Below, in pieces: positions 29,644 through 53,491 of a DNA stretch of 59,346 nucleotides (position 1 is the first letter of the stretch; the number at the start of each line of letters is the position of its first letter). This DNA is from Thermoanaerobaculia bacterium. GTDB taxonomy: Bacteria > Acidobacteriota > Thermoanaerobaculia > Multivoradales > JAHEKO01. The stretch spans positions 1 to 59,346 of the forward strand of contig CALZKB010000006.1 of assembly GCA_945787575.1 (NCBI GenBank), read 5' to 3'. Position numbers and translations under genes: made by a program. The notes beneath the pieces are model-generated. The model saw only the letters and a list, made by a program, of their open reading frames with translations. It was not told the origin of the DNA and did no database searches.

Positions 29644-31179
29644 ATGCCGCGGATGCTCCCCAAGAACGCCAGTCGCGAAGAGATCTTGAAGATCCTCGAG
29701 GACGAGGGGGGTCTGCGGGAGGGGACTTCCGCCGAGGTGCAACGGCAGACCGGGGTGCCGGAGGCGGACGTCTACGGGGTGGGGACCTTCTACCACCTGC
29801 TCTCCGACCCCGACGCCGGGGTACGAGTCTGCCAGGGGCTATCGTGCCAGGTGCAGGGGTGCGCCGGGAAGATGGCGGAGCTCGAGGCGGCGGGTACGAA
29901 GGCGACCTACACGGCTTGCCTGGGGCGCTGCGACATGGCTCCCGCGCTGTGGGATCCGGATGGCGACCCGGGGACGCCGGAGCCGCACTTCTCGCCCGGC
30001 CACCCGGACTTCGTGATCGATCTGATGGGGGCGGACAGGACGACCTACTCCGCCCTCGAGGCGGCGCGGGGCAACGGCGCCGAGTGGGTGCTCTCGGAGC
30101 TCGAGGCCTCCGGTCTCACGGGCAGGGGCGGTGCCGGCTTCCCGGCTCACATCAAGTGGCGGGGGGTGCGCGCCCAGCCGGAGACCGAGCGCTACGTGGT
30201 GCTCAACGCCGACGAGGGGGAGCCGGGGACGTTCAAGGACCGAGAGGTGATCCTCAAGCGGCCCCATCTGGTGGTCGAAGGGTTGGCGATCGCGGCCCAC
30301 ACGCTGGAGGCGGGGGACATCTATTGCTACGTGCGCGGCGAGTTCGGGCACGTGCGACAGGCGCTGATGATGGCGGTCGCCGAGGCGCGGATCCGGGAGA
30401 TGATCGATCATTCGGCAAAGTGGCATTTCGTCGACGGTCACGGCGCCTACATCTGCGGCGAGGAGACGGCGCTGCTGGAGGCCCTCGAGGGCAAGCGTGG
30501 GATGCCGCGGATGAAGCCGCCGTACCCGGTGGAGAAGGGCTTCCGCAACAAGCCTACGCTGATCCAGAACGTCGAGTCGATCGCCTGCCTGCCGGCAATT
30601 CTGAATCGCGGCGGGCAGTGGTTCCAACACGCGGGCCGGACTCAACCGGGCTCCAAGCTCTACTGCCTCTCAGGGCACGTCGCCAAGCCCGGGGTGTACG
30701 AGGCGCCGATGGGGATCTCGATGCGCGAGCTGCTGGAGCTGGCGGGCGGGGTGGTCGGCGAGCTCAAGGCGTTCTCGCCAGGCGGCGCGTCGAGCGGCTT
30801 CTTGCCAGCGGACGCGATCGACGTGGCGATGGATTTCGAAGCGCTCGCCGAGGCGGGCAGCATGCTGGGCTCGGCGGGGGTGGTCGTGCTCAACACGACG
30901 GTCGACATGGTGGACGCCGCGCTCACCCAGGCGGTGTTCTTCGAGGACGAGTCGTGCGGCCAGTGCTCGCCATGTAGGATCGGCACCCAGATCCTGCGTC
31001 AGGCGCTCGAGCGTTATCGCGACGAGGGGCGCAACCCGGAGACGCTCTCGTACGTGGCCGACGTTGCCTGGGGGATGAAGGAAGCGTCGATCTGCGGCCT
31101 CGGGCAGGCGGCTTCGCTGCCGCTCGAGAGCGCGATGCAGTATTTCCCTGGAGAGTTCGGACTCCCCGTTCCTGAGTAG
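29644..31179 (+). CDS. NuoE-NuoF fusion NADH-binding flavoprotein (HoxF/FdsB-like)
   Basis: A 511-residue two-domain protein. Residues about 1-110 form a thioredoxin-like [2Fe-2S] domain (RVCQGLSC, then TACLGRCDMAP). From about 150 on it is a NuoF-type subunit with GRGGAGFP (FMN/NADH), NADEGEPGTFKDR, GAYICGEETAL and the [4Fe-4S] motif ESCGQCSPCRIGT. Such fusions serve as the diaphorase of NAD-reducing hydrogenases or of NAD-dependent formate dehydrogenases. No partner (nuoG, fdhA or hoxUYH) is adjacent, so it is an orphan here. The [NiFe] hydrogenase 11 kb away is a membrane-bound type with its own cytochrome b, so pairing with it is uncertain. ATG at 29644. Confidence 0.9.
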   Translation: MPRMLPKNASREEILKILEDEGGLREGTSAEVQRQTGVPEADVYGVGTFYHLLSDPDAGVRVCQGLSCQVQGCAGKMAELEAAGTKATYTACLGRCDMAPALWDPDGDPGTPEPHFSPGHPDFVIDLMGADRTTYSALEAARGNGAEWVLSELEASGLTGRGGAGFPAHIKWRGVRAQPETERYVVLNADEGEPGTFKDREVILKRPHLVVEGLAIAAHTLEAGDIYCYVRGEFGHVRQALMMAVAEARIREMIDHSAKWHFVDGHGAYICGEETALLEALEGKRGMPRMKPPYPVEKGFRNKPTLIQNVESIACLPAILNRGGQWFQHAGRTQPGSKLYCLSGHVAKPGVYEAPMGISMRELLELAGGVVGELKAFSPGGASSGFLPADAIDVAMDFEALAEAGSMLGSAGVVVLNTTVDMVDAALTQAVFFEDESCGQCSPCRIGTQILRQALERYRDEGRNPETLSYVADVAWGMKEASICGLGQAASLPLESAMQYFPGEFGLPVPE

Positions 31180-31254
31180 ACTCGAATACCCTCGAAGCAC
31201 GGACACGCCAGAACTTGCATCTTGCAGGCCTGGCACCCTCGAGGAGGGCCTCCG

Positions 31255-34200
31255 TTGGGCAAGGTCTACGGTCTGCTGGTTGGCATCAACGACTATCCCG
31301 CAAGCGTCGGCTCGCTGGGTGGCTGCGTCAATGACGTCGAGGCGTTCGCGGAGTATCTCGCGCAGGAGTTTGCCGCCGGGGACCTGGCGCTCGAGATGCT
31401 CGAGAACCAGGATGCGACGCGCGAGAACGTCATCGGCGGGTTTCGTAGCCATCTGGGCAAAGCGGGGAAGGACGACGTTGCGCTCTTTCTCTACTGCGGG
31501 CACGGCGCCCGCTGGGCCTCGGCCAACGAGTTCCACCGGTTCTATCCGGAGAAGATGGACGAGGGGCTGGTCTGCATCGACAGCAGGGCTCCCGGCGGTT
31601 TCGACCTCGCCGACAAGGAGATCGCGGTGCTGCTGTCGGAGGTGGCGCACAACGAGCCGCACCTGGCGGTGATCTTCGACTGCTGCCACTCCGGGTCGGG
31701 CACCCGCGGGGTGCCGGATGCCCTGGTGCGCCGTGCGCGCCAGACCCACACCCGGCACGACGAGCGGCCGCTCGAGAGCTATCTCGACGGCCACTTCGCG
31801 AAGCGCGTCACGGCCGGTGAGGAGCTCTTCCTACCGCCCAGTCGCCACCTGCTGATGGCGGCGTGCGAGCGGTTTCAACAGTCCTACGAGGACTTCGACC
31901 TCGACAAGGGGGAGAGCCACGGCATCTTCTCGATGGTGCTGCTCGAGCTGCTTCAAGGGGCGGGCCGCGGACTCAGCTATCAGGAGCTCTTCAACCGTTG
32001 CCGGCGGGAAGTCCACGAGCAGGACTCGCGCATGCTGCCGCAGTTCGAGAGCTTCGGGGGCTTCGATTCGACGGTCGGCTTCCTCGGCCTGGAAGCAACA
32101 GGGTCGGGGCGGCAGTTTCGCGTCTTTCTCGACGGCGGGAGCTGGAAGCTGGAGGCCGGCTCCCTCGACGGCATGCCGACGGAGCCCGGGCGCCGAGCCG
32201 AGCTCACGCTCTATCCGCAGTCCGGCGAGAGAGTGGCGGCCGGTGGGGCCACGACTCGCAGCGTCGGACCCCGGACGAGCTCGCTGGACCTCGACTTCGA
32301 GCCCTGGGAGGACGAAACCGCCTTCGTGGGCGAGGTTACTTCACTGCCTTTGCCCGGGCTGCGGGTGCTGGTGACCGGCGAGGCGGCCGGCCTGGCCGCG
32401 CTCGACGAGGCGCTCGCCGGCAACCCCCAGGTCGAGCTCACCGAGGATCCGGGCGGAGTGGACTACGAGATCCGCTCCCGCGAGGACCGATTGGAGTTCT
32501 GGGACTTGGTGAACGCCCGTCTGGTCCATGGCGTCCGCGGCGCTGACGAGAAAGCGGCCGTACACCTTCTGACCGAGACCGTGGCTCACGTCGCGGCTTG
32601 GGAGCGTGCCGTGGCGCTGCAGAATCGCGGCACTCGCATGCCGATGGACGAGGTCGAATTCTGGCTGACGCACGGGGACGACGTGCGCACGCTGGAGAGC
32701 TCGGGGCAGAGCGGCCCGTTCGAGCCCGATCGCATCACCATCGACATCCCGGCGCCCGCGGCGAACGGTCAAGCGGCAAACGTCCCCTACAAGCTCTGGG
32801 CGCGCAACCGGAGCGCGCAGGAGCTCCACTTCGCGCTCTTCTACTGCTCGCCGGAGTATGGAATCGAGCCGCAGACGAACCGGCCCTTGCCTCCGGGTGA
32901 GGAAGCCGTCGAGCTCTGCGAGACTGCGCACGCGATGTACCTGAAGGAAGAGGTCTCGCAGGAGATCCTCACCTTGAAGCTCATTGTCAGCACTGAGAAG
33001 TTCGACGAAGGCTCCCTGGAGATCAAGCCGCTCAGGCGCGATAGGGGATCCGTCGTCATGGGTGTGCCCGAGCCAGAGAGAGAGATCTTCACCGAGGAGT
33101 GGTTCGCCAAGTCGATCGAGGTCAAGCTGGTGCATGAAGGTACCGTGGCCGACGGGCAGGACGTGAGGCTTGCCGAGGGCGCGGTCATCGTGCGCGCGCA
33201 CCGCTCGGTGACCGCCAAGGCCTCGTTGACTGCGGCGGCGAGCGGGAGCCGGGCTGCCGGACGAGAGGCGGCTTTCATCGAGCTCCTGACGGGCCTCGGG
33301 CCGGAAGCGCGGTCCTTCGAACTCGTCGAGCTGGGCGGCGGGCGCTCGCGTGGGGAGGGCTCCGCCAACGTGCTCGAACTCACTGACATCACCAACGCGG
33401 AGGCGCTCCAGGAAGCCCCCCTCGAGATCGTGCTCGACACACCGCTCGAGAACGGCGAGTACGTCCTGCCTCTCGTCTTCGATGGCCGCCACATCCTCCT
33501 CGGCGGCGCCCCGAGCGCGCTCGACGACGGCAAGACCCTGGTTCGGGTGGACCACCTGCACGAGATCCCCAGCGACCGCCGCAGTCTGGCCAAGGCGCTC
33601 AAGCTCTACTTCGTGAAGACCTTCCTCGGGCGTGGCGGCGTCAACAAGCTGAGCTGGGTCGAGTACGCGGCGGACGGTTCCGCCACTCGCCATGAGGAGG
33701 GCGTCCGGGAGCGCGTCGAGGCCGCTGACCGAGTGCTCGTTGTCGTGCACGGGATCATCGGCGACACTCAGCGCGCCGCCGAGGGAGTGCGCCGGGCGGG
33801 GGTCGACGCCAACTTCGACGTCGTTCTCACCTACGACTACGAGAACCTCTCGACTCCGATCGAAGAGACCGCCGCCGACTTCGCGGCCCAGCTCGCCGCG
33901 GTCGGGCTCACACACGGCGACGGCAAGCAGCTCACCATCCTCGCCCACTCGATGGGCGGCCTGGTGTCGCGGGTCTTTATCGAGAAAGCCGGCGGCGAAG
34001 CGGTAGTCGACCACCTGGTGATGTGCGGCACCCCCAACGGCGGATCGCCGTTCGGCAAACTGGACTCCGCCCGCCGGCTGGCGACGACGCTCACCACCCT
34101 GCTCCTCAACTACGTTCCGAGCTCAGCGCCATTGTCCGTACCGCTGCTCTTCCTGCTCAACCGCAGCGAGAAGATCACCCCGACCCTCGAACAGATGAAC

Positions 34201-34518
34201 CCCGGCTCCGCCTTTCTGGCCGAGCTCAACCAAGGCCGACCGGAGACCGAGACACGCTACACGGTGCTGGCCGGCAACGTCGGTGACTACGAGGCCGAGT
34301 CCGACCAGTGGCTCTCTGCGCTTCTGACCAAGGCGGCCCAGGGGAGCGCCCTGGAATCCCTCTTCGGGACCGCGGAGCACGACATCGCGACCAGCGTGAA
34401 GAGCATGCGGACGGTTGAAGGGGTCGATGAGGAAGAAGGCCAAGTGGTGCCTTGCCTGCACACGAACTACTTCAGCGCGCCGGGTGGGTTGGCGGCACTG
34501 GCCAAGGTGGGCTGGTAG
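31255..34518 (+). CDS. caspase-family (C14) protease fused to alpha/beta hydrolase
   Basis: A 1087-residue protein starting at TTG 31255, chosen because GAGGAGGG lies six bases before it. Residues 1 to about 280 are a metacaspase-like domain: KVYGLLVGINDYP, catalytic His83 in YCGHGA, and catalytic Cys144 in FDCCHSG. A middle part of about 500 residues has no clear family; it is rich in beta-sandwich-like segments (KLWARNRSAQELHFALFY). The C-terminal 280 residues form a PGAP1/lipase-like alpha/beta hydrolase: VLVVVHGIIGDTQ, nucleophile Ser899 in LAHSMGGLVSR, CGTPNGGSPFG, and a likely catalytic His late in the domain. No signal peptide is visible. The caspase may regulate or release the lipase-like domain in a suicide or defence response. 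This is inference. Confidence 0.88.
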   Translation: MGKVYGLLVGINDYPASVGSLGGCVNDVEAFAEYLAQEFAAGDLALEMLENQDATRENVIGGFRSHLGKAGKDDVALFLYCGHGARWASANEFHRFYPEKMDEGLVCIDSRAPGGFDLADKEIAVLLSEVAHNEPHLAVIFDCCHSGSGTRGVPDALVRRARQTHTRHDERPLESYLDGHFAKRVTAGEELFLPPSRHLLMAACERFQQSYEDFDLDKGESHGIFSMVLLELLQGAGRGLSYQELFNRCRREVHEQDSRMLPQFESFGGFDSTVGFLGLEATGSGRQFRVFLDGGSWKLEAGSLDGMPTEPGRRAELTLYPQSGERVAAGGATTRSVGPRTSSLDLDFEPWEDETAFVGEVTSLPLPGLRVLVTGEAAGLAALDEALAGNPQVELTEDPGGVDYEIRSREDRLEFWDLVNARLVHGVRGADEKAAVHLLTETVAHVAAWERAVALQNRGTRMPMDEVEFWLTHGDDVRTLESSGQSGPFEPDRITIDIPAPAANGQAANVPYKLWARNRSAQELHFALFYCSPEYGIEPQTNRPLPPGEEAVELCETAHAMYLKEEVSQEILTLKLIVSTEKFDEGSLEIKPLRRDRGSVVMGVPEPEREIFTEEWFAKSIEVKLVHEGTVADGQDVRLAEGAVIVRAHRSVTAKASLTAAASGSRAAGREAAFIELLTGLGPEARSFELVELGGGRSRGEGSANVLELTDITNAEALQEAPLEIVLDTPLENGEYVLPLVFDGRHILLGGAPSALDDGKTLVRVDHLHEIPSDRRSLAKALKLYFVKTFLGRGGVNKLSWVEYAADGSATRHEEGVRERVEAADRVLVVVHGIIGDTQRAAEGVRRAGVDANFDVVLTYDYENLSTPIEETAADFAAQLAAVGLTHGDGKQLTILAHSMGGLVSRVFIEKAGGEAVVDHLVMCGTPNGGSPFGKLDSARRLATTLTTLLLNYVPSSAPLSVPLLFLLNRSEKITPTLEQMNPGSAFLAELNQGRPETETRYTVLAGNVGDYEAESDQWLSALLTKAAQGSALESLFGTAEHDIATSVKSMRTVEGVDEEEGQVVPCLHTNYFSAPGGLAALAKVGW

Positions 34519-34675
34519 TCGAGAAGACCCTCAGTCTCCGCGCGAGGTTCCCGCGCGGCCGTGTGCCCTTCGAGTGTTGCCAGGGTTCGACGCGGAGAGC
34601 CTCTCCCGCTTGCTCCGTTTCCGCACAAGCGTTAGCCTGGACGCGTAACGAGTTCCAGTCCGGCTGGAGAAGGTC

Positions 34676-37288
34676 ATGAAGCGCGGAGTGGGTAGCGCCG
34701 AGGGCGGTCCTGGCGGGCGAGAAGTGGCTGATCGCAAGGCGCCACTGGACGACGCCGGCTTCCGCACCGACGCGCATGCGGTGGTCATCGGGATCAACGT
34801 TTACGAGGACGGCGCGATCCCCGATCTGAGGTACGCGTGCGCGGACGCCGAGGCCGTCTGCTCGGTGCTGACCGATCCGGAGCTCGGCCGTTTCCAGGAG
34901 GGCAACGTCAAGGTGCTTCTGGACCAAAGAGCCACCCGCAAACGCATTGTCTCCGCCATTGCCAACGACCTTCCGAAGCGAGCCGGCGACGGCGACACCG
35001 TGGTGGTCTACTTCGCGGGTCACGGTGCTCCAGTCCAGGAACAGGGCGAGCCCGCCGGCGACGGTTTCGAGAAGTACCTGGTGCCACACGACGGTGAGTT
35101 CGACAACCTCTGCGCCACCGGCGTGGACATGGCGGACATCCGGAAGTACTTCGGCTATCTCGACGCTCGCAAGGTAATCTTCTTCGTCGACTCCTGCTAC
35201 AGCGGGGTCTCCGGTGGGCGTACCTTCGAGCGACAGTCGCTCCGGACCGCAGGGGGACTGAGCGACCAATTTCTCGAGTCTCTGGCCTCCGAAGGCCGCC
35301 TCGTCATCACCGCCTGTGGGCCGAACGAAGTCTCTATGGAAAGCGACGATCATGGCCGGGGCCTCTTCTCCTACTACCTCACCGAGGGACTGAAGGGCGC
35401 TGCCGACTCCAACGAGGACGGCATCGTCTCGATCGACGAGCTCTACACCTACGTCTACGAGAACGTGAAACGCGAGGCGCGGAAGCGGGCGGGTCGCATG
35501 CATCCCGTGCGTAAGGGCGAGATCAGCGGACAACTCCTGCTGACCCAATACGAGACGGAAAGTCAGAAGACCGCCCGCAAACTCAGTGAACAAGCGGCCA
35601 ATGCCTTCGCCAGGCGCGAGTTCAGTGCAGCCGAGAGGCTGTGGACCGGCGCTCTGCGAGCGGACCGTGGGTGCAGCGAGGCGCGCGCCGGTATCGCCAG
35701 CCTCCTCCACACGCGTCGTCAGAGAAAACTGTTGAGCTACTTTGACAAAGAGGAGTTGAAGGCGGCGGAGTTCGGCGAAGCGATGGAGCTGCTCAAGAAG
35801 GAGCCCGACACCCTGACCGGCGCCGAGCGTACGAAGCGGCGCCTGCTGTTGGCTCTGATCGACGGCGACTTCGGTGTCGACACCTACAGGGACTCGCTCG
35901 AGCTGCTCGTGGTGACTCCGCAGGGAGACCGCGGACCTGCCGACGGCGAGCGCGAGTTCGTCGGCAGGGTGTGGATCCGAGGCCAGCGCGCTAGACTCCG
36001 CACTGCCGACGGAGAATCGCTCCTACTCGTTCCCTTCCCCAGCGGCGCTCCCGTCGACGAAGCCAGACAGCTCCGCAAGGGCGCCGCGCTCTTCGAGCAC
36101 TTGCGGAATCGCGAAGTGAGAATCACCGGCGTTCGAGAGGGGGACCGGATCTTCAGCGCCACCCCCTCGCCGCAGCCCCTACCGGAGGAGCGGGCCGACC
36201 CATCGGAGAGCGAGCTCGAGGAGAGCCTGGAATCCGTCTTCAAGAGCGACAGTCTCAAGGTCGCTCGCAAGCTCAACGCACTCGGAATCCACACCATCTC
36301 CGCCTTCTATCATCGGGTGAAGAACCTCGCTTCCGAGGCCGAGACCTTCTCCATCTACCTGGGCGTGTCGGTCGGCTCGATCCACCGGTTCGTCGACTCG
36401 ATGGAGGCGGGGGAGGCGGAGCTGATCGCCGCACCGCCGAAGAGACCGTTGACCCGCAACGTAGGGAAGCCGGGGAAGAAGAGGGCCCGCGCCACGGTCG
36501 CGAAGCTGCCCGAAGACGCCCGAACGACGGCGCTCCCGGCACAGGTGGACCTCACCCGCTACGTCACGAGCGTACGCAATCAGGGTCAGATGCGGGCAAC
36601 GTCTGTTGCCTTCGCGGCCATCGCCGCGTTCGAGCACGAGCTCATTCGCAAGGCTCAAACCGCCGGCGACGACTACGAGGGGACGAGGTACAACACCACG
36701 CTCGACCTCTCGGAGCAGTATCTCTACTGGGCCTGCAAAGAGCTCGACAAGGCCTCGAACGAAGATGGGACGTCGGTTCGCTACGCCGCGATGGTGCTGA
36801 GCGATGGGATCAGCTCGAGTCGACTGGCCCCCGGGGTCGTGCGCGAGCCCGTTTGGCGATACAACCCCGATCCGATCGAGGGCAACCCGGGGCAGGGGCC
36901 GCCGCCGGACGAGGCTCTGAAAGCACCCAAGCTGGCCGTCGAGAGGGCGCGGCAGCTCGACGCGACGTCGATTCGAGAGCTCAAGGAGACCCTCCACCGC
37001 GGTCACTGTGTCGTGCTGTCGGTCTACACCTACCACTTCTGGGTCGACGGATACGCCTGGCGCGAAGGCGTGATCTCGCTGCCGTCACGAACCCCGATCG
37101 ACGGAGCGGACGCCGTCTGCTTGGTAGGCTACGAGGACGAAGACGACGCCCACGGCGACGGCCAGTTCCGGTTCAAGAACAGCTGGGGCACGAAGTGGGG
37201 GGTCGCCAGGCCGGATCCGGGTTTCGGTGATCTTCCGTACCGCTATGTTCTGACGGAGGGGATCGAGGCCTGGGCTTTCGAGGTCTGA
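34676..37288 (+). CDS. caspase-family (C14) protease fused to a catalytically dead papain-like domain
   Basis: An 870-residue protein with several parts. Residues about 30-285 are a caspase domain with His116 in YFAGHGAP and Cys174 in FVDSCYSGV, so it should be active. A TPR-like segment follows at about 300-345 (AANAFARREFSAAERLW). A helix-hairpin-helix-like stretch lies at about 525-575 (KLNALGIHTISAFY, GVSVGSIHRFVDSM). A papain-fold (C1) domain begins at about 620. There the usual QGQxGxCxAFA is QGQMRATSVAFA, with Ser643 at the Cys position. The usual GGHAV is GADAV, with Asp812 at the His position. Only Asn835 (KNSWGTKWG) remains. That domain probably binds a ligand or partner. The start ATG follows GGAGAAGG, 157 bp after the first caspase gene. 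Confidence 0.87.
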   Translation: MKRGVGSAEGGPGGREVADRKAPLDDAGFRTDAHAVVIGINVYEDGAIPDLRYACADAEAVCSVLTDPELGRFQEGNVKVLLDQRATRKRIVSAIANDLPKRAGDGDTVVVYFAGHGAPVQEQGEPAGDGFEKYLVPHDGEFDNLCATGVDMADIRKYFGYLDARKVIFFVDSCYSGVSGGRTFERQSLRTAGGLSDQFLESLASEGRLVITACGPNEVSMESDDHGRGLFSYYLTEGLKGAADSNEDGIVSIDELYTYVYENVKREARKRAGRMHPVRKGEISGQLLLTQYETESQKTARKLSEQAANAFARREFSAAERLWTGALRADRGCSEARAGIASLLHTRRQRKLLSYFDKEELKAAEFGEAMELLKKEPDTLTGAERTKRRLLLALIDGDFGVDTYRDSLELLVVTPQGDRGPADGEREFVGRVWIRGQRARLRTADGESLLLVPFPSGAPVDEARQLRKGAALFEHLRNREVRITGVREGDRIFSATPSPQPLPEERADPSESELEESLESVFKSDSLKVARKLNALGIHTISAFYHRVKNLASEAETFSIYLGVSVGSIHRFVDSMEAGEAELIAAPPKRPLTRNVGKPGKKRARATVAKLPEDARTTALPAQVDLTRYVTSVRNQGQMRATSVAFAAIAAFEHELIRKAQTAGDDYEGTRYNTTLDLSEQYLYWACKELDKASNEDGTSVRYAAMVLSDGISSSRLAPGVVREPVWRYNPDPIEGNPGQGPPPDEALKAPKLAVERARQLDATSIRELKETLHRGHCVVLSVYTYHFWVDGYAWREGVISLPSRTPIDGADAVCLVGYEDEDDAHGDGQFRFKNSWGTKWGVARPDPGFGDLPYRYVLTEGIEAWAFEV

Positions 37289-39265: not shown

Positions 39266-39492
39266 CTCAGGGTCCTCCGTCGACGTTCTTCGAGACGATA
39301 CCAAAGCGGACCATCAACCGATGCTCTGCAAGAGCCTCACTCCCATCCCGAGCTGGCGATGAGGGACCTCGCTCCGCCGAGACACCGGTGCTCGAAGCGC
39401 TACTGACGAGCGTCGTGGCCGGGGAAGTCGTCGCGCCAGGCGCTCGTGGCAAGCCCTTGGTAGAGTTTCGGCCTCAGCCAAGGAGAAGAGCG

Positions 39493-40923
39493 ATGTTAGG
39501 ACGAACCCTTACTGCCCAGCTGGCGGTGTTGTCGCTGGCGCTGCTGGTGTGGGTGCCTGCCGCCGCTTCCGCGTCGGACCTGATTCTGATTCTCGATGCC
39601 TCGGGCTCGATGTGGGGGCAGATCGACGGCGAGAACAAGATCGTCATCGCCCGCAGCGTCCTGGGTCCGTTGATCGAAGGCCTGCCCGAGGATCAACGGG
39701 TGGGGCTCATCGCGTACGGGCATCGCCGGGAAGGCGACTGCTCGGACATCGAGCTCGTCGCCCCGCTGGGGCCGCTCGACAAGGTGAGTCTGAAAGCGAC
39801 GCTCAACGCCATCCAGCCAAAGGGGAAGACGCCACTCACTCGTTCGGTGCAGGAGGCCTTCGCGGTGATCGAGAGGGGTGACGGCGCGACCGTCATCCTC
39901 GTCTCCGACGGTCTCGAGACCTGCGACGCCGATCCATGCGCCGCCGTCGCGGCCGCCAAGGAGCGAGGCATCGATTTCGTCCTCCACGTCGTCGGCTTCG
40001 ACGTCGTCGGCGAGGACGTCTCGTCGCTCGAGTGCGCCGCGCAGGCGGGCAACGGCCTGTTCTTCTCGGCCGAGAATGCCGACCAGCTGGCCGCAGCGCT
40101 CGAGACCGCGGTCGCCTTGCCAAACGAGATTCCGGCCGGCGGGCTCGCCGTCAAAGTGGTGAAGGACGGAGCGCTGCACGACGCCTCGATCCGCGTCACC
40201 GCCCGCAACAGCGGCGAGGAGATCAACGTCTCACGCACCTACTACCGGCCGGAAACCAACCCCCGGCGCTTGCCGCTGCCGGCCGGCGACTACGCCGTGC
40301 GGGTCCGCGCACTGGGCATCCGGGGAGCAATTGATCGTACCTTCGAGATCACCCTGGCGGAAGGCGAGATCGCCGAGCGCGAGTTCGACTTCACCTCCGG
40401 CACACTGTCGGTCGGCGCGCGGCGCAACGGCGAGCTCAGCGACGCAACGGTCAAGATTTTCCTCGCCGGTACCCGCGAGGAGGTGGCGACCGGTCGCACC
40501 TACACCAGCGCCAGTCACAATCCCCATGGCTTCGAGCTGACGCCGGGTACCTACGACGTGATGGCGCAGTCGGTGGAGATGGACGGTGTCGTGCGGCTGC
40601 GCTCCGATGGAGAGGAAGTCAGGCCGACCGAGGCTGTCGAGGTCGCGCTCGACTTTGCCAGTGGCACGCTGACGGTCGGCGCGACCCGCGACGGGGAGCT
40701 GCTCGACGCCAGCGTCAACGTGATCGATGTCAAGGAAGGGCGGTCGGTAGCCTCGGGCCGCATCTACGGTGGGCCGAACGGCAAACTGAAGGAGTTCATT
40801 CTGGCCCCAGGCAGCTATCGGCTCGACGTTCGCGCCCGCGACCAGGCGCGCGAGCAGGTCGAAGTGGTGATCGAGGCGGGCGGGGCGGTCGAGAAGCGGG
40901 TGGAGCTTCCAGCACCGCTTTGA
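39493..40923 (+). CDS. VWA-domain protein with three beta-sandwich repeats, secreted
   Basis: A 476-residue exported protein. The ATG at 39493 is preceded by AGGAGAAG and opens a signal peptide (LAVLSLALLVWVPAAASA). The von Willebrand A domain (about residues 28-210) has an intact metal-ion-dependent adhesion site: DASGSMWG, then the Thr in GKTPLTRS, and the Asp in LVSDGLETC. Three related carboxypeptidase-regulatory-like modules of about 90 residues follow (repeated FxSGTLxVGAxRxGELxDAxVxI). It probably binds a protein or surface ligand through the metal site. The partner is unknown. Confidence 0.85.
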   Translation: MLGRTLTAQLAVLSLALLVWVPAAASASDLILILDASGSMWGQIDGENKIVIARSVLGPLIEGLPEDQRVGLIAYGHRREGDCSDIELVAPLGPLDKVSLKATLNAIQPKGKTPLTRSVQEAFAVIERGDGATVILVSDGLETCDADPCAAVAAAKERGIDFVLHVVGFDVVGEDVSSLECAAQAGNGLFFSAENADQLAAALETAVALPNEIPAGGLAVKVVKDGALHDASIRVTARNSGEEINVSRTYYRPETNPRRLPLPAGDYAVRVRALGIRGAIDRTFEITLAEGEIAEREFDFTSGTLSVGARRNGELSDATVKIFLAGTREEVATGRTYTSASHNPHGFELTPGTYDVMAQSVEMDGVVRLRSDGEEVRPTEAVEVALDFASGTLTVGATRDGELLDASVNVIDVKEGRSVASGRIYGGPNGKLKEFILAPGSYRLDVRARDQAREQVEVVIEAGGAVEKRVELPAPL

Positions 40924-42206: not shown

Positions 42207-42264
42207 GGCCCTCGGGCGACCCGCCCCGGGGAGCAGGTCCCCCAAGGTGGTAGGGCGTGGCGGT

Positions 42265-42299
42265 CCACCCTCCGGGGTGGCAACTTCCCGTGCCACGGG
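42265..42299. promoter_or_regulatory. two adjacent inverted repeats before hypF
   Basis: CCACCC-TCCG-GGGTGG (42265-42280) and CCCGTG-C-CACGGG (42287-42299) lie side by side, 20-55 bp before the preferred hypF start. They could form leader hairpins or be regulator sites for the hypFCDE operon. If hypF instead starts at GTG 42257 they would be coding. Confidence 0.3.
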
Positions 42300-42319
42300 C
42301 GTTACGATCGTGCGCACTA

Positions 42320-44683
42320 GTGACCAGCGATAGCCAGCGACGGTTGAGGCTCGAAGTGCAAGGCGCGGTGCAGGGCGTCGGCTTTCGGCCGTTTGTCTAT
42401 CGGCTGGCCGGCGAGCTCGGTCTTGCCGGCTGGGTGCTCAACGACAGCCGCGGAGTGGTCATCGAAGCCGAGGCGTCGCCGCAGACGCTGGCCGCGTTCC
42501 GTTCGCGTCTAGCCGGGGAGCTGCCGCCGCTGGCCGCGGTGGAGAAGCTCGACAGCCGGTGGCTCGAGCCGGAGGGCGCCGCCGGCTTCGCGATCCGACA
42601 CAGCGAGGACGACGGCGCCAAGAGCGCCGTGATGCTTCCGGAGGTCGCCACCTGCGCCGACTGCCTGGCGGAAGTTCTCGATAACGAGAACCGCCGCCAC
42701 GGCTACCCGTTTACCAATTGCACCAACTGCGGGCCACGCTTCAGCCTCATCGAGGCCCTGCCGTACGACCGGCCCAACACCACGATGCGCCGCTTCGAGA
42801 TGTGCCCCGCCTGCGAGCGTGAGTACAGCGCACCGGCCGACCGCCGCTTCCATGCTCAGCCCAACGCCTGCCACGAATGCGGGCCGCGGCTGGCTTTGCG
42901 AACGCCGTCCGGAAAGACCGTCGCCGAGGATGCGAAGGCGTTGAACGATGCGGTGCGGGCGCTGCGGCGGGGCTCGATCGTCGCGGTCAAGGGGATCGGC
43001 GGCTTCCACCTGATGGTCGATGCGCGCAGCTCGGCGGCGGTGGCCCGGCTGCGCGAGCGCAAGGGACGCTACGACAAGCCTCTGGCGCTGATGGTCGCCG
43101 ACCTCGATCAAGCGAGGCGCTGCTGCCGGATCGACGCTACCGCCGAGAGGCTGCTGAGCTCGCCACAGGCGCCGATCCTCTTGATGCCGCGCCGGGCGAA
43201 AAGCGAGATCGCCGACGAGGTGGCGCCGGGTAACCCTCGACTCGGTCTCCTGCTGCCCTACACGCCGCTGCATCACCTGCTGCTGGGCGAGGCGGGCATC
43301 CCCCTGGTCGCCACCAGCGGGAATCTGAGCGATGAGCCGATCTGCACCCGCAACGACGAAGCGGCCGCTCGCCTGGGTGGCATTGCGGACCTCTTCCTCG
43401 TCCACGACCGTCCGATCGCTCGCCACGTAGACGACAGCGTGCTGACCTTTGTCGACGGTGGAGCGCAGCCCATTCGGCGGGCCCGCGGCTTTGCGCCGCT
43501 GCCCGTGATGCTGCGCGCGCCGGTCGCGCCGGTGCTCGCGGTCGGCGCCCATCAGAAGAACGTCGTCGCCTTGGCGGTGGCCGAGCGGGTCTTCTTGAGT
43601 CAGCACATCGGCGACATGGAGACGCCGCAGGCGATGACCGCCTTCGAGCGGGTAATCGAGGATTTCCTGATGCTGTACGAAGCGGCGCCGGAGCAGATCG
43701 CCCACGATCTCCACCCCGACTACCTGACGACCCGGTGGGCCATGGACGCGAGTTCGGGCGGCGTGCCGGGAAGCTCCGTTGCTGCGAGGGAGGCTCTCGC
43801 CGGCGCCGAGCTGGTGGCGGTGCAGCACCATCACGCCCATCTCGCTTCCTGTCTGGCCGAGCACCACACCGAGGGTCGCGCGCTGGGCGTGATCTGGGAC
43901 GGCACCGGCTACGGCACCGACGAGACGATCTGGGGTGGTGAGTTCCTGCTCGGCGACGCCTCCGGTTACGAGCGGGTGGCCGCGTTGCGGCCGTTTGTGC
44001 TGCCCGGCGGCGCGGCGGCGGTGCGCGAGCCGCGGCGAGTGGGGCTGGCGCTGCTGTGGAGCCTGCTGGGCGAGTCGGCCTGGCGAGACGAGGCGCTGCC
44101 GACGATTGCCGCCTTCGAGGAGCGCGAGCGCCAGATTCTGGATCGGATGCTCTCCTCGGGGCTACACTCGCCGGTGACGACCAGCGCTGGCCGGCTCTTC
44201 GACGGCGTGGCCTCGCTCATCGGTTTGCGCCAGGAGGTTTCGTTCGAAGGTCAAGCGGCGATGGAGCTCGAGTTTGCGGCACGAGACGAAGCGGGTATCG
44301 CCTATCCGGTGAAGGTCGCCGCCCGTCCGCGGCCGGCGGCCGGCGCGGACGCCCCCCGCTTCGAGCTCGATTGGCGACCCCTGGTGAGCGCCGTGCTACA
44401 CGACCTGCGAGCCGGCGTCGACCAGGGCACGATCGCCGGCCGGTTTCATGCCGGGCTGGCCGAAGCGATCTGCGCGCTGGCCGGTCACGTCGGCGAAGGT
44501 CGCGTCGCGCTCTCCGGTGGCTGCTTCCAGAACCGCTTGCTCACCGAGGAGTGCAGCCGCCGCCTGCGCGAAGCAGGCTTCGAAGTACTCGTTCACCGCC
44601 AGGTACCCCCCAACGACGGCGGCATCTGTCTGGGACAAGTGGCGGTCGCCGCCGCCATGGCAGACGGTGCCGAGCCAACCTAA
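42320..44683 (+). CDS. hypF: carbamoyltransferase HypF
   Basis: HypF makes the cyano ligands of the [NiFe] centre from carbamoyl phosphate, passing a carbamoyl group to the HypE C-terminal Cys. The domains follow in order. An acylphosphatase domain (VQGAVQGVGFRPFVYRLA) comes first. Next are zinc-finger pairs (CADC, CTNCGPR, CPACEREY, CHECGP). A YrdC-like domain (IVAVKGIGGFHLMVDA, RKGRYDKPLALM) follows. The last is a Kae1-like carbamoyltransferase domain (HHHAHLASCLAEH, VIWDGTGYGTD, ALSGGCFQNRLL). At about 787 residues it is full length. GTG 42320 fits the family N-terminus. GTG 42257, with AAGGTGG before it, would add 21 residues and is possible. Confidence 0.95.
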   Translation: MTSDSQRRLRLEVQGAVQGVGFRPFVYRLAGELGLAGWVLNDSRGVVIEAEASPQTLAAFRSRLAGELPPLAAVEKLDSRWLEPEGAAGFAIRHSEDDGAKSAVMLPEVATCADCLAEVLDNENRRHGYPFTNCTNCGPRFSLIEALPYDRPNTTMRRFEMCPACEREYSAPADRRFHAQPNACHECGPRLALRTPSGKTVAEDAKALNDAVRALRRGSIVAVKGIGGFHLMVDARSSAAVARLRERKGRYDKPLALMVADLDQARRCCRIDATAERLLSSPQAPILLMPRRAKSEIADEVAPGNPRLGLLLPYTPLHHLLLGEAGIPLVATSGNLSDEPICTRNDEAAARLGGIADLFLVHDRPIARHVDDSVLTFVDGGAQPIRRARGFAPLPVMLRAPVAPVLAVGAHQKNVVALAVAERVFLSQHIGDMETPQAMTAFERVIEDFLMLYEAAPEQIAHDLHPDYLTTRWAMDASSGGVPGSSVAAREALAGAELVAVQHHHAHLASCLAEHHTEGRALGVIWDGTGYGTDETIWGGEFLLGDASGYERVAALRPFVLPGGAAAVREPRRVGLALLWSLLGESAWRDEALPTIAAFEERERQILDRMLSSGLHSPVTTSAGRLFDGVASLIGLRQEVSFEGQAAMELEFAARDEAGIAYPVKVAARPRPAAGADAPRFELDWRPLVSAVLHDLRAGVDQGTIAGRFHAGLAEAICALAGHVGEGRVALSGGCFQNRLLTEECSRRLREAGFEVLVHRQVPPNDGGICLGQVAVAAAMADGAEPT

Positions 44684-44693
44684 GGAGGTCCCC

Positions 44694-44969
44694 ATGTGTC
44701 TCGGAGTTCCAGGTCAGATTCTCGAAATCGAGCACGACGCTCTTGGAATGTCGATGGGGCGAGTCAGCTTCGCCGGGATCACCAAGCAAGTTTGTCTCGC
44801 CTACACCCCGGAAGCCGAGGTCGGCGACTATGTGGTCGTCCACGTCGGGTTCGCGATCAGCCGAATCGACGAGGACGAGGCGCACAAGGTCTTCGACTAT
44901 CTCGAGGAGATGGGCGAGCTGGCCGAGCTCGATATTCCGCAACCGAGCGAAGAACCGGCGGCATCATGA
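44694..44969 (+). CDS. hypC: hydrogenase maturation chaperone HypC
   Basis: A 91-residue chaperone that carries the Fe(CN)2CO unit with HypD and delivers it to the hydrogenase large subunit. It begins with the invariant MCLGVPGQI, whose Cys2 is essential, after a perfect Shine-Dalgarno (AAGGAGG) eight bases from the end of hypF. The beta-barrel core ([20 protein letters not shown]) and the amphipathic C-terminal helix are present. The stop overlaps the hypD start (ATGA). Confidence 0.95.
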
Positions 44970-46063
44970 AGTACGTCGACGAGTATCGCGACGGAGAGCA
45001 AGCTCAGCAGTTCGTCGCCGCGATCGGCGAAGTGGTGACTCGCCCGTGGAGCCTGATGGAGATCTGTGGCGGCCAGACCCACACCTTCATGAAGTCGGGC
45101 GTCGACCGACTGCTTCCCGACTCCGTCGGGCTGGTGCATGGACCCGGCTGCCCGGTCTGCGTGACTCCCATCGAGCTGATCGACCGTGCCCAGGCGATCG
45201 CGCGCCGGCCGGAAGTGATCATGACCTCGTTCGGCGACATGCTGCGGGTGCCCGGCTCGACGACCGATCTGCTCAACGTCAAGGCCGAGGGGGGCGACGT
45301 GCGGATGGTGTACTCGCCGCTCGACGCGGTCAGGTTCGCCGAGCAGAACCGCGGCCGGGAGGTGGTCTTTTTCGCCGTCGGCTTCGAGACGACGGCGCCG
45401 GCCAACGCCATGGCCGTCTGGCAGGCGAGTCAGAAGGGGCTCGAGAACTTCTCGATCCTCTGCTCCCACGTGCTGGTGCCGCCGGCGATGGAGGCGCTTC
45501 TGGGAGCGTCCGACAATCTCGTACAGGGGTTTCTCGCCGCCGGACACGTCTGCGCCGTAATGGGTTACTGGGAGTACGAACCGATCGCGGAGCGCTACCG
45601 GATCCCGATCGTCGTCACCGGTTTCGAGCCCCTCGACCTGCTACAGGGCACCTACATGACCCTGAAGATGCTCGAAGAAGAGCGCTGGGGAGTCGAGAAC
45701 CAGTACACCCGCTCGGTGACTCGAGAGGGCAACCGCCCGGCGCAAGAGGTGCTGGCGCGGGTCTTCGAGACCTGCGATCGCAAGTGGCGCGGCATCGGGG
45801 AGATCCCGGCAAGCGGTTACCGGCTGAGGTCCGAATTCGAGAGCTTCGACGCCGAGATGAAGTTCGATGTCGGGGAGATCGAAGCCCAGGAGTCTCCGGA
45901 CTGCATCGCGGGCGAGATCTTGCGCGGGTTGAAGAAGCCGCACCAGTGCTCGGCCTTCGGCGAGCGCTGCACTCCCGAGCATCCGTTGGGGGCGCCGATG
46001 GTCTCGGCTGAAGGCGCGTGCGCCGCCTATTTCCTCTACGGCAACCGAGAGCAGGCGAGTTGA
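44966..46063 (+). CDS. hypD: hydrogenase maturation protein HypD
   Basis: HypD is the iron-sulfur scaffold on which CN and CO are attached to iron. At 365 residues it is full length. Key motifs are [15 protein letters not shown] (iron-binding Cys), [20 protein letters not shown], and the C-terminal [4Fe-4S] region [17 protein letters not shown] followed by SAEGACAAY. The ATG overlaps the hypC stop, and its own stop overlaps the hypE start (TTGA), so hypC, hypD and hypE are translationally coupled. Confidence 0.96.
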
Positions 46064-47139
46064 AGGACCCGAGCGACGAATCGAAGGGGCCGATCGACTT
46101 TGCGCTCTCCTGTCCACTGCCGATCTCGGACTATCCGACGGTGCAGCTCGCTCACGGCGGCGGCGGCAAGCTGTCGCAACTGCTGATCGAGAAGCTCTTC
46201 GTCGGCGCCTTCGGCAATGCGGCGCTCGAACAGCTTCACGACGGCGCTGTGCTGAACGTCGGAAGCTCCCGCCTCGCCTTTTCCACCGACTCGTTCGTCG
46301 TCCATCCGCGATTCTTCCCAGGCGGCGACATCGGTTCGCTGGCGGTCCACGGCACGGTCAACGACATCGCCATGTGCGGTGCGCGCCCGGTGGCCCTGTC
46401 GGCCGGCTTCATCCTCGAAGAGGGGCTGTCGATGGAGGAGCTGTGGCGCATCACCACCTCGATGAAGGAAGCCGCCGAAGAGGCCGGCGTCGAGGTCGTG
46501 ACCGGCGACACCAAGGTCGTCGATCGCGGCAAGGGCGACGGCGTCTACATCAACACCACGGGCCTCGGCCTCATCGCCGACGGGGTGGAGATCTCGCCCC
46601 GCCGGGCGCGCCCCGGCGACCGCGTGCTGGTGAGCGGACAGCTGGCGGTGCACGGCATCGCCGTGATGTCGGTGCGCGAGGGGCTCGAGTTCGAAACCGT
46701 GCTCGAGACCGATTCGGCCAACCTCTATCCGCTGGTCGCGCGGGTGCTGGAGCGTGGCGGCTCGCGAGTGCACGTCCTGCGCGATCCCACTCGCGGTGGG
46801 GTCGCCAGCGCGCTCAACGAGATCGCCACCCAAGCGGGCGTCGGCATGCAGCTCGAGGAGAACAGCCTGCCGCTGCGAGAGGACGTCCGCGGCGCCTGCG
46901 AGATCCTCGGATTCGATCCTCTCTACGTCGCCAACGAAGGCAAGTGCCTGGCGATCGTCGCGCCCGAGGCCGCCGATTCGGTGCTCGCGGCGATGCGCGA
47001 GCATCCTCTCGGCCGCGAGGCGGCAGTGATCGGTGCGGTCGTCGACGAGCACCCGGGGAAGGTCTACCTGCGAAGCCGCGTCGGCGGCATGCGGGTCGTC
47101 GACATGCTCTCCGGAGAGCAGTTGCCGCGGATCTGTTGA
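46060..47139 (+). CDS. hypE: hydrogenase maturation protein HypE
   Basis: An ATP-dependent dehydratase that turns the thiocarbamate made by HypF into a thiocyanate for transfer to iron. The TTG at 46060, overlapping the hypD stop, gives a 359-residue protein beginning shortly before the conserved [15 protein letters not shown]. Further motifs are [29 protein letters not shown] and [16 protein letters not shown]. The C-terminus ends PRIC, the required cyanide-carrying Cys. Confidence 0.95.
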
Positions 47140-47166
47140 GGCCGCGGCCTCGACCTCTTAGAGGCC
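47138..47166. terminator. stem-loop between convergent hypE and nickel transporter genes
   Basis: GAGGCCGCGGCCTC (47138-47151) is fully self-complementary. Its second half, GGCCTC, can also pair with GAGGCC at 47161-47166. These alternative hairpins span the 18-bp gap between the two convergent stops. No T-run is present. They may serve as a bidirectional terminator. Confidence 0.35.
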
Positions 47167-47889
47167 GAACTGAATCGCCACTCCGCAGGCGACGACGACG
47201 AGACCGGCAGCCGCATGCGCCCAGCGTTCGGCGCCAACCCAGGAGAACCGCGTCAACCCGCGGCGGCCGGCGAGGACCAGTGCCATCATCGTCGCCAGGG
47301 TGGCCGCGGCGAACACCAGCGCGACGAACACCGCGCCGAGGAGGCTGCCGGTCGCGGCCGGGACCATGAGCATCGGTACCAACGGCTCGCACGGCCCCAA
47401 GACGAAGACGACGAAGAGGCTCCAGGCCGAAGCGCCGGCGAGAAGCGAGCGCCCACCGGCACCGGCAGGCGCCTCATGGAGATGGGCGTGGTCATCGGCG
47501 TGCGCGTGCCCGTGACAGTGAAAGGTGCCGTCGACATGCTCGTGCCAGTGGCTGTGCGGGCGGCCACGCAAGGCGCGGCGCAGGCCCCAGGCAGAGTAAG
47601 CGAGGCCGAAACCGAGCAACAGCCAGCCAGCCAGTTGCCCGCGCATGGTCTCCCACCAGATCGCTTCTTGGAGTCGCCAGCCGAGCGCCAGAGCGAGGCC
47701 GCCGAGCACGACCGACCCGGCAATATGCCCAGCGCCGCAAGCGAGGGTCACGGCGCTGGTGCGCCGGGTGTTCCAGCGACGGCTCTTGGAGAGGACGATC
47801 AGGGGGAGATAGTGGTCGGGGCCGAGTAGTGCGTGCACGATACCGACCGCCGCGGCCGTCGTCGCCAATGCGATCAGCTCGCCCGTCAT
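47158..47889 (-). CDS. nickel/cobalt transporter-like membrane protein with His-rich loop
   Basis: A 243-residue protein with six or seven membrane segments. HALLGPDHYLPL in helix 1 resembles the metal-site HxxxxDH of nickel transporters. A central loop rich in His (HSHWHEHVDGTFHCHGHAHA) precedes AHLHEAP and the second half (FVVFVLGPCEPLVPML). It is the last gene of the hydrogenase operon, 15 bp after hypB, where nickel supply makes sense. Relatives include the HupE/UreJ- and RcnA-like families. Import rather than export is inferred from context. Confidence 0.75.
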   Translation of the reverse strand: MTGELIALATTAAAVGIVHALLGPDHYLPLIVLSKSRRWNTRRTSAVTLACGAGHIAGSVVLGGLALALGWRLQEAIWWETMRGQLAGWLLLGFGLAYSAWGLRRALRGRPHSHWHEHVDGTFHCHGHAHADDHAHLHEAPAGAGGRSLLAGASAWSLFVVFVLGPCEPLVPMLMVPAATGSLLGAVFVALVFAAATLATMMALVLAGRRGLTRFSWVGAERWAHAAAGLVVVACGVAIQFGL

Positions 47890-47904
47890 GGCTCGGCTTC
47901 CGGA

Positions 47905-48524
47905 CTAGGCCTCGGCCGCGGCGAGATCAGAGTGGTCGGTTTGGGCGGCCGCCCGCGCCTCGAGCCACGCCACCCACCGTTCGACACCTTCACCGCTCAC
48001 CGCCGACAGCGGGATGATCTCGGGCTCCGGCATGGTCTGCGCCAGCGCCTCCTCGATCGCCTCGATCCGCACCTGCGGCAGGTGAGGCAGGAGGTCGACC
48101 TTGGTCAGCAGCACCAGATCGGCCTTGCGGAACATCACCGGGTACTTGAGCGGCTTGTCCTCGCCCTCGGTGACCGACAGCGCCACCACCGGTGCACCAG
48201 CGCCGCGTCCAGATGGCAGGCCGAGCCGGTGGTGATCGAAAGCGAAGGAATGCCGGCCGCTTCGAGCCGCTGACCGTCGCGGTCGGTCGCTAGATCACCG
48301 GACAGAGCGGCGAGGCGCTTCTCGCACGCGAAGTGGCCGGCAGTAGTCTCGAGCAGGGCGGTCTTGCCCGAACCGGGCGAGCCCATCAGGTTGATCGCCA
48401 CGACCCCGCGCTCGGCGAAGTGCTCACGATTGTGCTTGGCGGTGAGGTCGTTGGCCGACAGCAGGCTCTCCTGGACCTTCACCGGGACCAGCTCGGGATC
48501 GCCGCAGCCGCAGGTCTCACACAT
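47905..48524 (-). pseudogene. hypB: hypB with internal deletion and frameshift
   Basis: HypB is the GTPase that inserts nickel with HypA. The 5' frame (48524 down to about 48195) has the N-terminal CETCGCGD metal motif, the Walker A GSPGSGKT and the metal-site SACHLDAALVH. The 3' frame resumes at VVALSVTEGEDKPLKYP and runs to 47905 through LVLLTKVDLLPHL. Compared with normal HypB, about 33-36 residues between the two are gone, including FIENVGNLVCP, which holds a metal-ligand Cys. The reading frame is also shifted. The junction lies in GTGCACCGGTGGTGGCG. Either hypB is inactive or the assembly lost about 100 bases. Confidence 0.85.
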
Positions 48525-48865
48525 CAGGCCACCTCCATTTCGATACGGTCGAGACCGATCTCGTCACCGGCGACCAGGGTCGCCGGCCGGTCGCAATCGG
48601 AACAGCGCAGGAAGGCGCCATTCGCGATCCGCCGCTGGCAGCGCGGGCACTCCCAGCGGGCCGCGACCGGCGTCACTTCGAGGTCGGCGGCGCGGCAGAC
48701 GGTGCGCTCGCGGAACAGCTCGTAGGCGGAACGAAAGAGATCGACCTCGACGCCGGAGAGATCGCCGATCGTCAGCCGGATCTTCCGTACGCTCGAGGCG
48801 CCGTGGCTGCGCGCCTCCGCTTCGACGCGGTCGAGAAGGGACTGGACGAGGGAGTACTCGTGCAT
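48524..48865 (-). CDS. hypA: hydrogenase nickel-incorporation protein HypA
   Basis: A 113-residue metallochaperone that binds nickel through its N-terminal MHE and carries a structural zinc site. MHEYSLVQSLLDRVEAEA opens the protein from the ATG at 48865. The zinc site is WECPRCQ and FLRCSDCDRPA (four Cys). IRLTIGDLSGVEVDLFR is the usual core. The start is two bases after the cytochrome c stop, and its stop shares one base with the hypB start. Confidence 0.94.
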   Translation of the reverse strand: MHEYSLVQSLLDRVEAEARSHGASSVRKIRLTIGDLSGVEVDLFRSAYELFRERTVCRAADLEVTPVAARWECPRCQRRIANGAFLRCSDCDRPATLVAGDEIGLDRIEMEVA

Positions 48866-48867
48866 GC

Positions 48868-49287
48868 TCACGGTCCCTCGAAGGCGACCCGCAACAGGTA
48901 CGCCGTCAGATCCCAAGTCTGTTCTTCGCTCAGCGCCTTCCAGGCGGCCATCGGCGTTCCTCGACGACCTTCGCGAATCACCTCGTACACGTCACGGGGG
49001 GTCGTGCCCTCGCGCCAGAAAGGGTTGGTGAAGTCGACCGCCGCGGTCGACAGCAGGCGCCTCCGACCGCGGCCGTCCGCGCGCTCGCCGTGGCACAGAG
49101 CGCAGTGGTTCAGAAAGAGCTCGCGTCCTCGGATGCGGGCCTCGTCGGACGCGAGCCGCTCTCGCGGCACGACGAGGCGCGCGTAGTCGGTCGTCGGGCC
49201 GCGCTCGCTACAGGCCGGCAATGTGAGTAAGACGGCCGCGACGATCGGACAGGTGAGAAGGAGGGTCCAGTCGGGGCGAGACGGCAT
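48868..49287 (-). CDS. c-type cytochrome lipoprotein in the hydrogenase operon
   Basis: A 139-residue monohaem cytochrome c. The ATG at 49287 opens a lipoprotein signal (WTLLLTCPIVAAVLLTLPACS, lipobox LPAC), so it is anchored to the membrane facing the periplasm. The haem site is NHCALCHGERADG, and the distal Met is probably in GTPMAAWK. The fold matches the small C-type (cytochrome c553/cbb3 subunit III-like) class. Its place between the protease and hypA suggests it takes electrons from the hydrogenase or its cytochrome b. Its 5' end overlaps the protease gene by 80 bp. Confidence 0.85.
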   Translation of the reverse strand: MPSRPDWTLLLTCPIVAAVLLTLPACSERGPTTDYARLVVPRERLASDEARIRGRELFLNHCALCHGERADGRGRRRLLSTAAVDFTNPFWREGTTPRDVYEVIREGRRGTPMAAWKALSEEQTWDLTAYLLRVAFEGP

Positions 49288-49750
49288 AGCCCATTCTCCG
49301 CGCCTCATCGGCGATTCGTTGAACCAGCAGCGGCAGATTCCGGTCGACGGCGGGCGAGCGAGCGAGGCCCAGCTCGAGGGTCGCCGGCACCAGACCCAGC
49401 AGATGGAGGCGAAGCGGATAGGCGTCCAGCAGGCGCAGACCGTCGAGCAGGTCCGCGACCCCGATCTGGTGGACGGATAGACGGGTCCGCACCGCCGGCG
49501 CGACGTCGTCGCCTTCGAGATGGACGAAACTGCCGGCCGGCTGGTCGGCCCGGATCGCATCCACGATGATGACGTCGTCGCCGCCTTCGAAGAGCGACAA
49601 CAGAGCGAGTCCCAGAGTGCCGCCGTCGAGAGCCCGCGCTTGCAGCGGCAGCACGTAGCGCCGCGAGAACTTCTCGATGGCGGCCACTCCGAGGCCGTCG
49701 TCTCCGCACAGGACGTTTCCGAGACCGAGGATCAGAAGCCGGTCGCCCAG
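49208..49750 (-). CDS. [NiFe]-hydrogenase maturation endopeptidase (HyaD/HupD-like)
   Basis: The protease that removes the large-subunit tail after nickel insertion. The family start LLILGLGNVLCGDDGLGVAAIE lies upstream of the first standard start codon (GTG 49687). No ATG, GTG or TTG precedes it in frame. A CTG at 49750 sits five bases after GGGGAGG and gives MGDRLLILGLGN, so I propose a CTG start. Nickel-binding acidic residues are visible (Glu in AAIEKF, Asp in VDAIRAD, His in SVHQIG). The last 26 residues overlap the cytochrome c gene. About 180 residues, slightly long for the family. Confidence 0.85.
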   Translation of the reverse strand: MGDRLLILGLGNVLCGDDGLGVAAIEKFSRRYVLPLQARALDGGTLGLALLSLFEGGDDVIIVDAIRADQPAGSFVHLEGDDVAPAVRTRLSVHQIGVADLLDGLRLLDAYPLRLHLLGLVPATLELGLARSPAVDRNLPLLVQRIADEARRMGYAVSPRLDPPSHLSDRRGRLTHIAGL

Positions 49751-49751
49751 A

Positions 49752-53334: not shown

Positions 53335-53491
53335 GGCACCCTCCTTCGTAAGTCGAGTTGCACGTAGCCTCTCACCGCTGGGGCGAGGGACACTACACGC
53401 GGGAAGAGGGGTGGTCCATACGCTCAAAGGGGGGTGTCCGAACTACCTCGCGGGGTGGCGGCGCTTGGCGGCCGGTTAGGATTCCCGCCGG

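Follow-up and report, generated by a model that had tools for sequence, protein, structure and literature searches.

A caspase-lipase gene beside a second caspase gene in a Thermoanaerobaculia genome: a candidate two-tier proteolytic switch

Initiator-executioner caspase relays are usually regarded as a feature of animals, and to our knowledge few protease cascades have been found in bacteria. A two-protease relay was reportedly demonstrated in bacteria by Steens et al. 2024, in which the SAVED-CHAT protein of type III-B CRISPR is said to switch on a prokaryotic caspase. In bacterial gasdermin systems, a caspase-like protease releases an effector that damages membranes. Related genes are described in predicted conflict systems. 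Kaur et al. 2020 (PMC7159879) report that the VMAP-linked caspase always has an alpha/beta-hydrolase gene as its neighbour, and that inactive peptidase domains are common in the VMAP (MoxR-vWA) ternary conflict systems. STAND-linked caspases are described in predicted conflict systems by Kaur et al. 2021 (PMC8195603).

We analysed a 59,346-nucleotide stretch of contig CALZKB010000006.1 of a Thermoanaerobaculia bacterium (GCA_945787575.1), hereafter the window. Two co-directional genes lie on its plus strand: gene A (31255..34518), encoding a caspase, a linker region and a lipase, and gene B (34676..37288; 870 aa), encoding a caspase, TPR-like and helix-hairpin-helix (HhH)-like parts and a putative pseudo-papain. 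A sequence-only reading of the window had claimed two tandem genes separated by 157 bp, both starting with a complete caspase domain, and we confirmed this. Both domains matched Pfam Peptidase_C14 well above its cut-off of 21.4 bits (A, 66.6 bits, residues 18-277 in the reading from 31222; B, 65.8 bits, residues 34-268). The open reading frame of A comprises 1098 codons (31222-34518, plus strand) when read from an upstream TTG at 31222, which is also open. The TTG at 31255 appears to be the better start because relatives of A start at the same point.

The caspase domain of A (PF00656; 31273..32052, plus strand) contains the dyad His83/Cys144 and the metacaspase-type acidic S1 residues Asp27 and Asp142. 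In an alignment of 39 sequences, H83, C144, C24, D27 and D142 were invariant. Asp27 and Asp142 align with Asp95 and Asp211 of TbMCA2, which we take to be its acidic S1 pocket residues. Acidic S1 residues confer Arg/Lys specificity on metacaspases, as established from TbMCA2. The A caspase is predicted to be metacaspase-like and to cut after Arg or Lys. The loop that follows the catalytic Cys (residues 144-171; 31684..31767, plus strand) had low pLDDT near residues 147-157 in an AlphaFold model, and its arginines are conserved (Arg151 in 39/39 sequences, Arg162 in 37/39, Arg171 in 36/39). With three conserved arginines, this loop is an obvious candidate for a processing site.

Beyond a linker region of beta-rich domains that matched no Pfam family (32122..33591, plus strand), A ends in an alpha/beta-hydrolase (33592..34515, plus strand). 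This domain belongs to the lipase-type family DUF7379 (62.3 bits against a Pfam cut-off of 33; core 33736-34230). In the AlphaFold model of A (39 sequences; mean pLDDT 79), one end matched metacaspases and the opposite end bacterial lipases, in agreement with the lipase-like hydrolase that the sequence-only reading had placed here. Ser899, Asp1043 and His1069 form a candidate lipase triad and are conserved in 36/39, 39/39 and 38/39 sequences, respectively. Because these residues are conserved, the lipase of A is probably active.

Gene B begins with a caspase domain (34775..35479, plus strand) in which His116/Cys174 were read directly from the sequence and both acidic S1 Asp residues are kept, as judged by inspection. 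The TPR-like, HhH-like and papain-like parts proposed earlier for the rest of the protein were recovered as predicted folds in a structure model; a point missed in the sequence-only reading is that the papain-like part has lost its catalytic residues. A helical TPR-like region (35534..35911, plus strand) was modelled at pLDDT of about 70-90 and an HhH-like region (36206..36430, plus strand) with moderate confidence; neither a TPR nor an HhH family was significant in Pfam. The Pfam search found no NTPase family in B either, which places it outside the caspase-nSTAND1 proteins. The C-terminal domain (PF00112; 36533..37201, plus strand) matched Peptidase_C1 at 32.8 bits (cut-off 20.7), and in the model of B (mean pLDDT 60) its papain fold matched xylellain and cathepsins. 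On comparison with relatives, Ser643 (36602..36604, plus strand) stands where papain has its catalytic Cys, and Asp812 (37109..37111, plus strand) where papain has its catalytic His; the rest of the motif is retained (NSWG, VGY). Because of these two replacements, we read the domain as a pseudo-protease that is unlikely to work as a cysteine protease. The catalytic Cys and His are present in relatives of the papain half, both from this phylum and from Planctomycetota, and the loss is therefore specific to B among the sequences compared.

The genes that flank the A/B pair are metabolic (NuoF-like, hyp and NiFe hydrogenase genes), with a vWA protein also present (39388-40923). They are not defence genes and give no hint of defence. 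The PADLOC matches came from its generic caspase model (PDLC02987) only. Among the neighbours scanned with Pfam, which make up part of the ORFs of the window, neither of the genes that join vWA in a VMAP ternary system, MoxR and VMAP, was found. The gene upstream of A (29644-31179), which ends 75 bp before it, encodes a NuoF-type protein to which a thioredoxin-like 2Fe-2S domain is fused. A sister species has this NuoF-like neighbour at 82% identity, and neither A nor B occurs there in the compared stretch. We looked in that species for a syntenic empty site and found no clean one, as the NuoF-like neighbour was the sole window gene common to the stretch. Further downstream in the window (42257-53427) lie hypF, hypD, a gene for an AIR-synthase-like protein (possibly hypE) and the genes for both NiFe hydrogenase subunits. 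Other caspase genes occur in the same genome: a convergent kinase-caspase and Sel1-caspase pair (L041, G000:C83, 6784-10525) and, on the same contig as the window, a caspase-DUF4384 gene adjoining a fatty acid desaturase gene (L043, G000:C6 76000-92000, 4447-7766).

Our search of 148 related genomes, including the same genus and the same family, returned no other full-length relative of A, and A is therefore patchy near home. Nor did these 148 genomes yield a full-length relative of B, and with no full-length match of either gene we rejected the whole A/B pair as an orthologous unit. A wider scan, using one genome per species across 84,980 species, returned full-length relatives of A from Pseudomonadota, Planctomycetota, Calditrichota, KSB1, Aminicenantes, Acidobacteriota, Cyanobacteriota, Bacteroidota and Chloroflexota. 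In the multiple alignment, identity to A over about 1090 residues is 38-47% for the closest group and 22-33% for the others. The family also occurs nearly whole on four plasmid records; the viral contigs searched contained neither full-length A nor the C-terminal half of B. In two related genera (L047 and L051), the lipase is replaced by a subtilase in an otherwise identical layout, and the caspase-subtilase gene is followed by a caspase gene and then by a HEAT-repeat gene.

We next considered the neighbours of the A family, using the 38 caspase-lipase loci that are flanked on each side by more than 1 kb (one of which, L178, doubled as a seed of the scan). A co-directional caspase or CHAT gene lies within 300 bp of 26 of them, and a caspase or CHAT gene on either strand lies within 5 kb of 31. 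The earlier proposal would have been refuted had the homologues never been neighbours, and for gene A this was not the case. Some A genes (L112, L117, L137, L138) have no caspase-fold neighbour. Among 30 other caspase loci of the same scan, 11 also have a caspase or CHAT neighbour within 300 bp, in a comparison set that is not clean, as several of the 11 are truncated A-type genes. Large multidomain caspases cluster with one another anyway. In an earlier survey, more than one metacaspase was reported in 20 of 217 metacaspase operons (PMC3501461). Within this sample, the excess of caspase-fold neighbours for A genes is clear.

The partners are of several types: caspase-nSTAND1 (alone or joined to WD40 or TPR), CHAT, CHAT-nSTAND1-WD40, CHAT-AAA and caspase-TPR. 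The statement in the sequence-only reading that no STAND, gasdermin or nuclease gene is nearby held for the neighbouring genes scanned around the A/B pair. As regards STAND it was misleading, since an nSTAND1 NTPase sits on the usual partner of A. On the Nostoc plasmid pNLP1, one 3057-aa reading frame (L186, 3491-12664) joins a caspase-lipase to another caspase that has a STAND-like NTPase; a program matched both caspases and the hydrolase, and the STAND-like part was read by eye. The far C-terminus of this protein resembles, by eye, a periplasmic ligand-binding domain. On Anabaena pANA01, the A gene is followed by a CHAT-TPR gene. Deinococcus aetherius pDAETH-2 (L184, 3581-12528) carries a row of C1 papain, I42 papain inhibitor, caspase and caspase-lipase genes, in which the papain is a separate, intact gene and the caspase has likely membrane segments. 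Near a contig end, a third caspase reading frame directly follows a caspase-lipase gene (L036, 8761-9417). Overall, the proposed two-protease system is supported insofar as a caspase-lipase beside a second caspase-type protease recurs and is fused in Nostoc; conservation of the exact pair is not supported.

The exact pairing of A with B was observed in one genome. When full-length B was compared with ten genomes carrying A, the matches were to the caspase domain alone. Relatives of the papain half of B occur in Planctomycetota. The C-terminal half of B gave few or no matches in 396 genomes of the phylum, in 236 Planctomycetota and in 239 genomes of the Variovorax phylum, the last a search run without a positive control, and none of the matches was shown fused to a caspase. 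The sole match among the plasmids searched was one Priestia C1 peptidase. An HhH-like stretch precedes the papain domain in two loci (L278 and L279), a weak likeness seen by eye. In the planctomycete locus L278 (788-8263), a papain gene is followed by tandem caspase-PEGA-FGE and caspase-GYF genes. Because of this locus and pDAETH-2, papain-type and caspase-type proteins can be said to meet at more than one place. Near other A loci, papain genes were seen only on the Deinococcus plasmid and at L053, where one C1 gene lies at a distance of about 5 kb from a caspase of A-like type.

We observed that the caspases of nSTAND1-fused partners are about 40-83% identical to their own nearest relatives. 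The B caspase is an outlier, at most 31% identical to any of them. Distances between A proteins and between their partner caspases were weakly correlated (Mantel r 0.23, p 0.07, not significant), and co-divergence of A with its partner caspases was rejected as a pattern on this result. Because the B caspase is distant and these distances correlate weakly, B appears to be a replacement for the usual partner of A and not its orthologue.

A and its caspase-type partner are likely a functional pair, because the pairing recurs in many lineages and occurs as a single chain in Nostoc. We propose, at about even odds (probability roughly 0.5), that the pair forms a two-tier proteolytic switch in which a variable partner would sense a trigger and cleave A, freeing a protease and a lipase that would kill or arrest the cell. 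The proposal draws on the domains, the conservation of the active sites, the recurring adjacency, one natural fusion and the swapping of partners, all of which are established here. From these we infer the cleavage itself, its direction and site, the lipid target and the trigger, and also that the pair serves defence or regulated cell death. Gene A would be the constant part, an effector held quiet as a single chain. The partner would be the variable part, a protease of caspase or CHAT type that bears the modules for sensing. In relatives these would be nSTAND1-WD40, TPR or HEAT, and in B the TPR-like, HhH-like and pseudo-papain parts. The pseudo-papain would most likely act as a sensor or scaffold that binds a peptide or protein and leaves it uncut. 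Once the trigger was sensed, the partner protease would become active and cleave A, most simply in the exposed arginine loop after the catalytic Cys or else in the linker region. Cleavage would release or activate the caspase and the lipase, and the freed lipase may then attack membrane lipids, so that the cell dies or stops growing.

A rival account takes A to be a self-contained effector that is activated in cis by its own caspase, with B an independent caspase of another pathway and a neighbour by chance. The A genes that lack a caspase-fold neighbour are consistent with it, as are the general clustering of caspase genes and the position of B, whose caspase falls outside the usual partner family and whose other parts differ too. 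Chance fits poorly with the 26 of 38 A genes that have a close co-directional caspase or CHAT gene, and with the fusion of both proteins in one Nostoc chain, and we consider this account unlikely, while giving it more weight than the two that follow.

Both proteases keep their catalytic dyads, and the STAND and repeat partners are long and offer many possible cleavage sites, which would also suit a reverse order, in which A is upstream, its caspase processes B and the lipase targets a lipid signal or serves in housekeeping. In relatives, the NTPase and repeats sit on the partner, and A bears a terminal hydrolase that a subtilase can replace, as is usual for a sensor and its effector. This makes the reverse order very doubtful. 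The metabolic flanking genes, and the reported link between orthocaspases and stress functions (PMC7889975), argue for a role in development, stress proteolysis or signalling in place of defence, with the lipase remodelling membranes in normal growth. Such a role sits uneasily with a patchy distribution across phyla, the lack of full-length relatives in the other genomes of the same genus and family that we searched, the presence of A on plasmids and partners with nSTAND1-WD40, to which an accessory conflict module is the better fit. We regard it as improbable.

Returning to the two-tier switch, it may extend to a wide family in which a constant caspase-lipase effector is cut by a sensor protease that can be exchanged (caspase-STAND, CHAT, CHAT-STAND, or caspase with pseudo-papain). 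We put this forward tentatively, as possible but somewhat less probable than the switch itself. If it is true, the family would be an undescribed bacterial initiator-executioner caspase relay that ends in a membrane-destroying enzyme and not in a pore. A constant caspase-lipase with varied caspase-fold partners, found in many phyla and once fused, would then be a testable bacterial counterpart of such relays, and scanning for the caspase-DUF7379 architecture would be a simple way to find more such systems. In B, moreover, a protease carries another protease domain that is dead and may serve as a sensor, a rare combination.

A published precedent for A is the pairing of alpha/beta-hydrolase and caspase genes in VMAP systems (Kaur et al. 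2020). In both, caspase and alpha/beta-hydrolase form a genetic unit; unlike in VMAP systems, A has the two in one protein and is paired with a second caspase. The available portions of the literature on VMAP- and STAND-linked caspases (Kaur 2020, 2021) hold no description of a fused caspase-lipase with a second caspase-fold protease. The EACC1-caspase two-gene system (Kaur et al. 2020; NF047832) is the closest NCBIfam subfamily to the B caspase and shares with B a variable C-terminal part. The B caspase scored 107 bits against this EACC1-associated caspase model, below its cut-off of 140, and the gene upstream of B is a caspase-lipase and not a small membrane EACC1 gene, which places B outside that system. 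Caspase-nSTAND1-WD40/TPR proteins are a common genetic partner of the A family, whereas B lacks an NTPase and its caspase is distant from theirs. Pairs of CHAT with A would work like the SAVED-CHAT/caspase cascade, whereas A and B have no CRISPR or SAVED parts and the lipase here is on the caspase. In contrast to bacterial gasdermin systems, the proposed effector is an enzyme fused to the caspase and not a pore former.
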